A stretch of DNA of 64,000 bases, taken from Glycocaulis sp. (GTDB lineage: Bacteria; Pseudomonadota; Alphaproteobacteria; Caulobacterales; Maricaulaceae). Positions 9,911 to 63,976 of this stretch are shown here, piece after piece. Positions within the stretch are counted from its first letter, which is position 1; each line of letters opens with the position of its first letter. The stretch spans positions 1 through 64,000 of the forward strand of contig JAIUMI010000010.1 of NCBI GenBank assembly GCA_022565665.1, written 5' to 3'. Below the pieces are notes generated by a model. The model made no database searches, was not told where the DNA came from, and saw only the letters and a list, made by a program, of their open reading frames with translations. The translations under genes and the position numbers were made by a program.

Positions 9911-10003
9911 CCTCGTCATCCCCGCGCAGGCGGGGATCCAGAGATCATGGGGCTCAGGCGGTCGATGGGGCTCTGGGTTCCCGCCTGCGCGGGAACGACG
10001 AGG
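9911..10003. repeat. Paired REP-like inverted repeat (BIME-type)
   Basis: Outer arms CCTCGTC (9911-9917) and GACGAGG (9997-10003) enclose two hairpins built on CCCCGC..GCGGGG and CCCGC..GCGGG, with inner CCAGAG (9938-9943) facing CTCTGG (9971-9976). This is two REP units head to head. It lies between the imuA promoter and repeat copy R1. Confidence 0.7.
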
Positions 10004-10072
10004 GGAAGCCGGGATCTATAATATGCACCTCACGCGTTTCACCGGGAAAGCCGGTGCCCAGCATCTTTTCCC

Positions 10073-10260
10073 TGATGCTCCGCACATCCGTGCGTCGCTC
10101 CTCGCTAAAGCTGCGGGCGCGCGGTCGCGCTTGCGGCGCTGTGCGCCGGGGAGCTAGTCCGGCCCCGTCAGGGGCCACCAGGCCGAACGGCCGCCCGCGA
10201 CTGCCTGTGCCCGCGCAGGCGGGTATTCGCGGAACATCGCAACGCGGATGCGTTGCGGAA
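10073..10260 (+). repeat. Structured intergenic repeat, copy R1 (with nested insertion)
   Basis: This shares its first 44 bases, a 23-base core block and most of the rest with copy R3 at 60839. The left-end hairpin is CGCAC-ATCC-GTGCG (10081-10094); the right-end hairpin is an 8-bp stem with a GGAT loop (10238-10257). Compared with R3, about 22 extra bases containing a CCCGCGCAGGCGGG-like hairpin sit in the loop of the CCGCGA/TCGCGG stem (about 10204-10228). Short open frames through it look like repeat translation, not genes. Confidence 0.8.
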
Positions 10261-10272
10261 CTAAAGGGTGCC

Positions 10273-57027: not shown

Positions 57028-58323
57028 ATGACCACATTCTACGATCTCGTTCCCGCCGCTGCTCCTGGCCGCTTTGACGGCATTGAGCGCAATTACACCG
57101 CCGAAGAGGTGATCAAGCTGCGCGGCTCCGTGCAGGTCAGCCATACGCTCGCCGAGCGCGGTGCGGCCCGCCTGTGGCAGCTCCTCAAGACCGAGCCCTA
57201 CATCAATGCGCTGGGCGCTCTTTCGGGCAATCAGGCCATGCAGATGGTGCGCGCAGGGCTGAAAGCCATCTACCTCTCCGGCTGGCAGGTGGCGGCGGAC
57301 GCCAACACCGCAGGGGCGATGTATCCCGACCAGTCGCTCTACCCGGCCAATTCCGCGCCGGAGCTGGCCCGCAAGATCAACCGCACGCTCCAGCGCGCTG
57401 ACCAGATCGAAGTTGCCGAGACCGGCAAGGCGAGCCGCGACTGGTTTGCCCCCATTGTGGCCGATGCCGAGGCCGGCTTTGGCGGCACGCTGAACTGCTT
57501 TGAGATCATGAAGGCCTTCATCGAGGCGGGTGCGGCAGGCGTCCACTTCGAGGATCAGGTGGCAGCCGAGAAGAAGTGCGGGCATCTGGGCGGCAAGGTG
57601 CTGATCCCGACGAGCCAGCACGAGCGCAACCTGAATGCCGCGCGCCTCGCGGCTGATATTATGGGGGTGCCGACCATCACGGTCGCGCGTACCGATGCAG
57701 AGAGCGCGACCCTCATCAACTCCGATATTGATGAACGCGATCACGAGTTCATCGATTTCGATGCGGGCCGCACGGCGGAAGGCTTCTTCCGGCTGAAAAA
57801 GGGCGTCGGCGTCGAGCACTGCATCAAGCGCGGCCTTGCTTACGCGAAGGTGGCTGACCTCCTCTGGTGGGAGACCTCCAAGCCCAATCTGGAGGAGGCA
57901 AAGCGCTTTGCCGAAGCCATCCAGAAAGCCTATCCTGGCAAGATGATGGCCTATAACTGCTCGCCTTCCTTCAACTGGGAAAAGAACCTCGACAAGGCCA
58001 CCATCGAGACCTACCAGCGCGAGCTGGGCGCTATGGGCTACAAGTTCCAGTTCGTGACGCTCGCCGGCTTCCACCAGCTCAATTTCGGCATGTTCGAGCT
58101 CGCCCGCGGCTATCGCGATCGCGGCATGGGCGCGTATTCGGAGCTGCAACAGGCCGAGTTCGCCGCCGAGAAGGATGGCTACACCGCCACGCGCCACCAG
58201 CGCGAGGTTGGCACCGGCTATTTCGATCTCGTCAACCTCACCCTGTCGGGCGGGGAAGCCACCACCACGGCCATGGGCGAGAGCACCGAAACCGACCAGT
58301 TCAAGGCAACGGCGGCGGAGTAG
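57028..58323 (+). CDS. aceA: Isocitrate lyase
   Basis: 431 residues, the glyoxylate-shunt enzyme splitting isocitrate into glyoxylate and succinate. The catalytic KKCGH has Cys184; [20 protein letters not shown] and GVHFEDQ hold the metal site; YNCSPSFNW is the second substrate loop. GGGAGG precedes the ATG. It faces its presumed regulator and is followed by an RraA-fold gene and aceB. Confidence 0.97.
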
Positions 58324-58392
58324 CGAAAAGCTGTCATGGCCCGGCCGAGCGCGAGCGAGGTCCGGGCCACCCATGCCTGAGAGGTAAAATTT

Positions 58393-58460
58393 CGGGCCGC
58401 AAGGGCGACCGCCCGCCCGCGATTTTTCGCGGAACATCGCAATGCGGATGCGTTGCGGAG
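58393..58460 (+). repeat. Structured intergenic repeat, partial copy R2 (right end)
   Basis: It has only the right part of the family: CCCGCGA/TCGCGG hairpin, GGAACATCGCAATGCGGATG and GCGTTGCGG. The terminal stem has one G-U pair compared with R1/R3. REP-like ATGGGTCCCC..GGATGAC (58471-58506) follows it. Confidence 0.7.
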
Positions 58461-58525
58461 CTAAAGAGGAATGGGTCCCCCGGACCGCTACGCGGCCGGA
58501 GGATGACACTGAGGTAAGAGCTCAC

Positions 58526-59002
58526 ATGCCCCACACCGCAGACCTCTGCGACACTTATCCTGACCAGGTGCAGGTGATGGCCCCGCTTTTCACCCATTTT
58601 GGCGGGCGGCAGGTGTTCTCTGGCGCCGCCGAAACGATCCTCGCCTATGAGGACAATTCGCGGGTGCGTGAGGTTCTGGCCGAGCCCGGTGAGGGCCGGG
58701 TGCTGGTCATTGATGGCGGGGCGAGCCTTGCCCGCTCGATGGTCGGGGGAGACCTCGCGAAGCTGGCGGCGGGGAATGGCTGGGCGGGGATTATTGTCCA
58801 CGGCGCGGTGCGCGACGTACACGAGCTGGAGGCCGAACCGCTTGGCGTGCTGGCGCTGGGGCTCATCCCGCGCAAGACCGACAAGCGCGGGCTTGGCACG
58901 CGCGGCGTCACCTTGCGCTTTGCGGGCGTCACCATTGCGCGCGGCACATGGGTCCATGCCGACCGGGACGGGGTTGTGGTATCGGCAGGGGAGTTGGTGT
59001 GA
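58526..59002 (+). CDS. RraA-fold protein, likely HMG/CHA-type aldolase or oxaloacetate decarboxylase
   Basis: 158 residues, similar throughout to E. coli RraA (RNase E inhibitor): ADLCDTYPDQVQVMAPLFTH, RVLVIDGGASLARSMVGGD, GWAGIIVHGAVRDVHELEAE. Unlike E. coli RraA, which has R-Q, it keeps the aldolase-type pattern G-x20-R-D-x2-E (Gly75, Arg96, Asp97, Glu100) known from 4-hydroxy-4-methyl-2-oxoglutarate aldolases, which also decarboxylate oxaloacetate. Its position between isocitrate lyase and malate synthase favours a role in C4/C3 acid metabolism, but RNase E regulation cannot be excluded. Start set at the ATG at 58526. Confidence 0.75.
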   Translation: MPHTADLCDTYPDQVQVMAPLFTHFGGRQVFSGAAETILAYEDNSRVREVLAEPGEGRVLVIDGGASLARSMVGGDLAKLAAGNGWAGIIVHGAVRDVHELEAEPLGVLALGLIPRKTDKRGLGTRGVTLRFAGVTIARGTWVHADRDGVVVSAGELV

Positions 59003-59037
59003 ATGCCCGGGCACGGGGACTACCACGCTCAGGCTTC

Positions 59038-59118
59038 CCGGGCCGCATAGCGGCCCGCAAGCGCGACCGCGCGCCCGAGCTAATGCGAGGAGCGAAGCCC
59101 GGATGGGCTGAGCATCAC
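59038..59118 (-). repeat. Structured intergenic repeat, degenerate copy R5
   Basis: Read on the minus strand, the left-end block (GTGATGCTC.., then GGAGCG-like GCTCCTCGC.. sequence) is recognisable with several changes; a GGGCCGC/GCGGCCC hairpin lies next to it. Only one end is kept. It and R2 flank the RraA-fold gene. Confidence 0.55.
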
Positions 59119-59172
59119 TAAAAGACTGGATCCCGGCTTGCGCCGGGAAAACGAGTAAAAAAGGAAATGCAC

Positions 59173-60780
<1,608 letters not shown>

Positions 60781-60793
60781 TGTCTGCCCCGCT

Positions 60794-61054
60794 CGTCATC
60801 CTCGGGCCGCGTAGCGGTCCCGGGGACCCATCTATTGGTGATGCTCCGCACATCCGTGCGTCGCTCCTCGCTAAAGCTGCGGACGCGCGGTCGCGCTTGC
60901 GGCGCTATCGCGCCGCGGAGCCAGTTCGCCCCCGTCAGGGGGCACCAGGCCGAACGGCCGCCCGCGACTTTTCGCGGAACATCGCAACGCGGATGCGTTG
61001 CGGAAACCAACGAGGAATGGGTTCCCCGGATGGCTATCGCCACCGGGGAATGAC
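60794..61054 (+). repeat. Structured intergenic repeat, full copy R3 with REP-like flanks
   Basis: The core unit is 60839-61005. The left hairpin CGCAC-ATCC-GTGCG is at 60847-60860, the right 8-bp stem with GGAT loop at 60983-61002, and CCGCGA-CTTT-TCGCGG just before it. Outside, CGTCATCC..GGACCCAT (60794-60831) and ATGGGT..GAATGACG (61017-61054) form inverted REP-like arms, so the whole 60794-61054 block resembles a non-autonomous inverted-repeat element. It fills the gene-free gap after aceB (60781-61130). Confidence 0.78.
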
Positions 61055-63810: not shown

Positions 63811-63821
63811 GGGCTGCTTTT

Positions 63822-63963
63822 TTCCGCAACGCATCCGCGTTGCGATGTTCCGCGAAAAGTCGCGGGCGCGCGTTCGCGCTTTTCGGGCCGCTTTGCGGCC
63901 CGCAAGGCCGACCGGCCGCCGGGCACTTTTGCCCGCAGCGACGCACGGATGTGCGGAGCATCA
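63822..63963 (-). repeat. Structured intergenic repeat, copy R4 (different core)
   Basis: On the minus strand its first about 27 bases and last about 45 bases match R3, but the middle is different, with its own GGGCCGC/GCGGCCC and GCGGGCA/TGCCCG hairpins. The right stem (63825-63844) and left stem CGCAC/GTGCG (63942-63955) keep the ATCC/GGAT loops. It is bordered by short T and A runs. Confidence 0.78.
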
Positions 63964-63976
63964 CAAAAAAATCAAC

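Follow-up and report, generated by a model that had tools for sequence, protein, structure and literature searches.

Hairpin-row repeats in Glycocaulis genomes resemble bacterial palindromic repeats and carry loop inversions and loop-nested hairpins

The intergenic repeats in a 64,000-nucleotide stretch of DNA from Glycocaulis sp., a member of an aquatic genus (the stretch is hereafter the window), belong to a family in which each element is a row of hairpins, and this family is probably a non-autonomous, REP/BIME-like DNA repeat that has been shaped by template switching and by exchange between copies. The element looks like a more complex new variant of the known bacterial palindromic repeats and not like an RNA gene. 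Where changes in a stem compensate each other, selection for an RNA structure is the usual interpretation. Here, a repeat with strong covariation also revealed loop inversions, stem swaps and loop-nested hairpins, which are the footprints of a mutation process, and such a process can create covariation by itself. The family provides dozens of natural replicates per genome for testing this mutation process and a RAYT-free origin of complex palindromic repeats.

Copies, architecture and distribution

The genome containing the window comprises 31 contigs with a total of 2.74 Mb. A preliminary description had placed copies at R1, R3 and R4 and partial copies at 58393 and 59038, and covariance models located all five as claimed (Table 1). 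In the two half copies, the models spanned 58421-58466 (+), corresponding to the right end and part of the middle, and 59084-59123 (-), corresponding to the left end and part of the middle. The repeats in the window go beyond chance, as evident from the 50 pieces that blastn with R1 found in the same genome (E ≤ 1e-3) and from the single-stranded DNA folds, which gave z values of -2.6, -3.4 and -3.7 for R1, R3 and R4, respectively; R3 and R4 folded into rows of hairpins.

Table 1. Positions of the repeat copies in the window and of the parts of R1
Feature	Position	Strand	Description	Basis
R1	about 10067..10266	+	full copy; order: left-end hairpin, TCCTCGC..AGC block, GCGC-GGTC-GCGC, GGCGC-TGT-GCGCC, GGCCCC-GTCA-GGGGCC, GGCC-GAAC-GGCC, CCGCGA stem with nested hairpin, right-end hairpin	covariance models, blastn, DNA fold
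R1 left-end hairpin	10081..10094	+	CGCAC-ATCC-GTGCG	sequence, DNA fold
R1 CCGCGA/TCGCGG hairpin	10195..10232	+	loop filled by a 23-nt nested hairpin	sequence, DNA fold
R1 nested hairpin	10203..10225	+	23 nt, in the CCGCGA/TCGCGG loop	comparison of R1 with R3 and R4
R1 right-end hairpin	10238..10257	+	GGAT loop, 8-bp stem	sequence, DNA fold
Right-half copy	58390..58466	+	within an element of another palindromic family	
Left-half copy	59038..59123	-	orthologous-site copies in G001, G002, G003 and G005	
R3	60833..61011	+	full copy, no nested insert	covariance models, fold
R4	63816..63969	-	full copy, second architecture	covariance models, fold

The two end hairpins were found as the preliminary description had drawn them, whereas the conserved ends reach further out than it had proposed: conservation stops abruptly at TTTT on the left and at AAAA on the right (57 right ends and 34 left ends). 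From the outside to the inside, each end consists of a T-run, a short block and a hairpin with an ATCC loop, and the right end is the inverted version of this arrangement. The third stem of the preliminary description, CCGCGA/TCGCGG, is present as well; the hairpin nested in its loop in R1 is missing from R3 and R4. Judged by eye, this nested hairpin is a variant form of the hairpin TCCCCG..CGGGGACAGG considered below, although it did not match the exact pattern.

Between TTTT and AAAA, the element is a row of about four to eight hairpins with loops of mostly 3-4 nt, and the middle between the ends is variable. Comparison of 36 distinct full copies (113-192 bases as cut) revealed two main architectures, the first with the stems GCGC, GGCGC, GGCCCC and GGCC and the second with the stems GGGCA, GGCC, GGCCGC and GCGC. 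R4 contains the hairpins GGGCA-AAAG-TGCCC, GGCC-GGTC-GGCC, GGGCCGC-AAA-GCGGCCC and GCGC-GAAC-GCGC. The inner part varied in order and orientation among the full copies, and its modules were freely inverted or lost. In copies where both GCGC/GGCC hairpins were recognised, the first had mostly a GGTC or GTTC loop and the last mostly a GAAC or GACC loop, independent of which stem was present. The preliminary description had no means of seeing the loop inversions, the 22-24-nt hairpins nested in loops or the exchange of modules among copies. A short form shared by three loci of Glycocaulis albus (L072, L074 and L084) resembles what a deletion between two nested hairpins of 23 nt would leave; both hairpins are retained at L168 in G001, and the deletion product seems to have spread.

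The search set contained 61 genomes, namely six genus genomes (the window's own, G000, and the congeners G001-G005, with Glycocaulis presumably taken in a broad sense) and 55 relatives from outside the genus. Many further copies had been anticipated, and the right-end covariance model found 27 right ends in G000, 44 in G001, 36 in G002, 33 in G003, 17 in G005 and one in G004, with one marginal match among the 55 relatives. This model was built from 38 sequences and used with strict filters, by which weak matches were possibly lost; 64 sequence windows had been reduced by reading to 57 element ends, of which 38 were modelled and 19, including four with nested inserts, were excluded. The left-end model (43 sequences) found 27, 31, 28, 22 and 12 left ends in G000, G001, G002, G003 and G005, respectively, none in G004, and one to nine in each of nine of the 55 relatives, two of the nine being marginal. 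Blastn with R3 gave pieces in 16 of the 61 genomes, including ten outside the genus in which mostly the left part was matched. An exact 30-base right-end pattern matched 16 stretches in a scan of 84,980 species genomes, which possibly did not include records of or near the window's own genome; all 16 belonged to three named organisms, Glycocaulis albus, Oceanicaulis sp. HLUCCA04 and Alkalicaulis satelles. Copies were also contained in two IMG/VR contigs listed as viral (L086 and L087), which are probably fragments of a host chromosome because they align to the chromosomal loci L017 and L041.

Three other palindromic families were seen by eye in the intergenic space of the window, and more were seen in relatives. 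Palindromic repeats other than the present family occupy positions 9918-9999, 10034-10060, 58332-58375 with 58468-58510, and 60793-60831 with 61013-61052. R3 is flanked on each side by one half of such an element, and the 58390 copy likewise lies between two halves. R1 adjoins one half-palindrome, the other half of which is kept in G002 and G003 and absent in the window genome. At 57028-60780, the genes for isocitrate lyase, an RraA-like protein and malate synthase all run in the same direction, and both gaps between them contain half copies of the repeat.

Paired stem changes, loop inversions and nested hairpins

The end stems change in pairs, and the end loops are mostly constant. Compensating stem changes, for which the preliminary description had proposed a test, were found. 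At the right end, 98.5% of 266 cells were paired, and 36 both-side changes were found compared with 15.2 in shuffles; there were essentially two stem alleles, and the measures based on counts of pairs or types stayed within the shuffled range (equalled or surpassed in 365 and 500 of the 500 shuffles). At the left end, where the rows had been preselected for having a stem, 36 both-side changes compared with 9.5 in shuffles, and eight different stems were counted; the number of pair types was unremarkable, being reached in 62 of 500 shuffles. A stem-blind anchor found a perfect stem at 43 of 56 left-end sites, and the 13 failures included, by reading, about five non-element sites and three sites with a nested insert.

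The kissing or cruciform pairing of the two complementary end loops suggested earlier was not supported. In all seven informative copies, one loop departed from ATCC/GGAT and the loop of the other, intact end did not follow; the remaining 33 of the 40 copies were uninformative, comprising 30 with ATCC/GGAT and three with an insert-carrying right loop. The complementarity of ATCC and GGAT results from the two ends being inverted relatives. The observation made in the preliminary description was confirmed, and its interpretation was partly supported.

Orthologous sites revealed how individual copies have changed. A copy is present at the R4 site in G005, and it differs from R4 by one paired change, an AAA versus TTT loop and one loop base. 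At the L011 site, the stem CGCAC/GTGCG and loop TTT of G003 correspond to AGCCC/GGGCT and AAA in G001, again with one loop base changed; additionally, comparison by eye of G001 with G003 revealed a 24-nt hairpin cleanly inserted between GG and AT (GG^AT) of the right-end loop, G005 had a one-base variant of this loop, and the element was in the opposite orientation in one comparison. The loops were AAA versus TTT at L168/L204 (G001 and G003) and TAT versus ATA at L080/L159 (G002 and G003). The central 3-nt loop was therefore exactly inverted at four of the eight comparable sites, defined as those at which both species keep the central GGCCGC stem (seven from a systematic pair scan collapsed by hand, with L161/L163 added). 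Loop inversion at half of the sites is not the rule. Three other sites differed by one base (the 59038 half copy, the L131/L132 relic and L075/L215), and the loops at L161/L163 were identical; all four of the three-base differences were exact inversions. By eye, the stem swap between AGCCC/GGGCT and CGCAC/GTGCG was seen at four orthologous sites, and one A:T to G:C paired change was seen between orthologous copies. The entire internal make-up differed at L015/L081 and L003/L070, and presence, absence and rearranged variants were found between species at the same intergenic sites.

The 22-24-nt hairpin TCCCCG-N-CGGGGACAGG occurred 54 times in five genus genomes and was absent from G004, and its backward control pattern did not occur in the genus genomes. 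When 299 genomes sampled from the order were scanned, the hairpin was present in 15, ten of them outside the genus with one to five occurrences each; since the control pattern was also present, once each, in 11 of the 299, most matches outside the genus may be due to chance. The insertion points were ringed by a stem of at least 6 bp in 46 of the 54 cases, compared with 99 of 1080 random points in the same loci. Outside the genus, the host stem measured 9 at L251, 6 at L250 and 3-5 at the other fetched sites. By reading, the inserts sit in at least six types of host hairpin; three types belong to the repeat family and three do not, and one of those outside the family was seen once. The number of insertion events is lower than 54, because host and insert have spread together. 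The orthologous pairs L131/L132 and L127/L128 revealed precise insertion without duplication, which may alternatively represent precise excision in the other species.

These findings speak for the preferred reading of a REP/BIME-like repeat shaped by template switching and exchange. Hairpins would form when the region becomes single-stranded during replication, and a polymerase switching template between arms or strands would make the arms match and invert the loops, so that one event could produce several paired changes together. Exchange between copies would swap whole hairpin modules, and single-stranded hairpin pieces might be captured in loops. The uncompensated stem changes GGCC to AGCC (L168), AACGC to AACAC (L080) and GGGCC to GAGCC (L109) count against this reading, as do the four comparable sites at which the central loop is not inverted. 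Stem swaps that involve only a few alleles may also reflect simple copy-to-copy exchange without template switching, and functional constraint may act on the copies.

A more far-reaching possibility, which we put forward tentatively, is that TCCCCG-N-CGGGGACAGG is itself mobile and among the smallest mobile elements known, entering single-stranded hairpin loops without target duplication. The repeats would then have been built by repeated hairpin capture and template-switch inversion with no dedicated transposase.

It is unlikely that the family is only an old one homogenised by gene conversion, with neither mobility nor a special mutation process. A small set of stem alleles does appear repeatedly, both at separate sites and at the two ends; the nested-insert variants have spread with their hosts, and conversion from an opposite-orientation copy could also supply an inverted loop. 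However, a central loop that is exactly inverted at four orthologous sites, together with inserts in the loops of six or more types of host hairpin, calls for more than like-for-like conversion.

Mobility and gene context

No transposition event was seen, which counts against the preferred reading, as does the lack of a clean empty site in the compared relatives. The search for such a site with a defined junction covered the sites of the window and nine further loci found by their flanks, five of which were aligned; no junction was fixed because most of the corresponding sites in relatives are occupied by palindromes of other families. The intergenic sites at L096-L135 (G001, G002, G003 and G005) were slot-like, and the same gap often held a different palindromic family in each species. 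At the R1 site in G001 (L098; G001:C1:1147200-1149000), a palindrome (TCCCGACTT...GTCGGGA) is interrupted within its loop region by about 1.2 kb of AT-rich, foreign-looking DNA, which is again a case of a hairpin loop as target.

The Y1/RAYT transposase domain (PF01797), looked for as the preliminary description had proposed, was found in none of the six genus genomes by a search that was limited to the Y1 type and was positive in five of 14 control genomes. Target-site duplications were not in excess among 39 copies, for which the longest shared word averaged 3.95 compared with 3.91 after shuffling (218 of 500 shuffles as high). Among the 31 left ends of G001 and the 43 of 44 right ends listed, 18 left ends had their right end 55-260 bp away, 12 lacked one within 8 kb and one was paired at 7.2 kb. 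The latter pair was rejected as an autonomous element, as its five scanned ORFs were housekeeping genes (an oxidoreductase, RNase E/G, Maf, UPF0262 and EPSP synthase), and no autonomous element was found among these pairs. Additionally, the GTAG or GTGG tetranucleotide that PMC6006769 places 0-2 nt 5' of the hairpin foot of a REP was absent: the consensus feet on the two strands were CATC and TTCC at the right end and GCTC and GCGA at the left end, and shifting the feet by 1-2 nt still yielded neither tetranucleotide.

These four results, namely the missing domain, the feet, the lack of a duplication signal and the lack of an autonomous element among the G001 ends listed, argue against REPINs moved by a RAYT/TnpA-REP transposase since lost from the sampled genomes and against a MITE of a classical transposon. 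The inverted hairpin ends around a spacer, the intergenic location and the high copy number are in line with such an origin, and other members of the order do have Y1 transposases (matches at E ≤ 1e-3 in 11 of the 61 genomes); we consider this origin improbable. Under the preferred reading, new sites would most likely be reached by a process that acts on single strands and needs no resident Y1 transposase, or with the help of a transposase that is lost or unknown.

The hairpin rows have collected chiefly on the downstream side of genes. Among 63 right ends in intergenic DNA, 30 lay between convergent, 26 between co-directional and seven between divergent genes, compared with 18, 64 and 18 of 100 background gene pairs in the 8-kb loci; these counts refer to fetched loci only and to a crude gene caller, which placed three more right ends inside ORFs. 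An intrinsic terminator would have a T-run after its hairpin, whereas at the ends of the element T precedes and A follows on either strand. The gene context and the orientation counts given below are easier to reconcile with a DNA element whose presence downstream of genes is tolerated than with an RNA made from one strand. A structured RNA family, whose transcribed copies would act as RNA (in processing, stability or protein binding) with stems kept by selection, is in our view quite improbable: the strong paired changes, the conserved end loops, the RNA folds of R3 (z = -4.3 and -4.8 for the two strands) and the bias to the 3' side of genes favour it, but the elements were oriented with co-directional genes in 15 cases and against them in 11, without a clear bias, the two strands of R3 fold about equally well, the non-Watson-Crick pairs of the right hairpin were, by reading and in tiny number, near symmetric (three G.T, two A.C and two others), the inner modules are freely inverted or lost, and Rfam gave no match above the gathering threshold over the whole window; the preliminary description had not recognised the repeat as a named REP or MITE class.

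Comparison with known repeat systems

The family was not named in the openly licensed literature searched, which also yielded no match for repeats of Glycocaulis genomes or for bacterial spacer inversion; both are weak negatives. The element resembles REP, REPIN and BIME sequences and probably behaves like them. As described in PMC3116915 and PMC6006769, these are intergenic, high-copy, non-autonomous and mosaic, with inverted end hairpins around a short spacer, and the Glycocaulis element is likewise short, palindromic and intergenic, is present in many copies per genome and has two inverted hairpins around a spacer. It was not filed as a REP because the two defining tests failed, namely those for the foot tetranucleotide and for a cognate transposase. 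In further contrast to these repeats, it has a row of hairpins instead of two, loops that invert and hairpins nested in loops.

Intergenic hairpin arrays are also formed by the GC clusters of yeast mitochondria, which merge and shuffle, and by the repetitive hairpin-forming elements of sponge mitochondria (PMC4478555, PMC2800124). In those organellar clusters the stems are conserved and the loops vary, whereas the bacterial Glycocaulis element keeps its end loops and varies its end stems pairwise. The small dispersed repeats of cyanobacteria are a further parallel and are of very small size. Likened to them by description only, the Glycocaulis family stands out for the insertion of hairpins into the loops of other hairpins.

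The template-switch footprints described for yeast inverted repeats and rRNA (PMC8604942, PMC8794818) include arm matching, multiple paired changes and exact inversion of the spacer or loop, all of which have counterparts here. Those footprints represent separate events in yeast genes and rRNA, whereas the Glycocaulis footprints recur within one repeat family.
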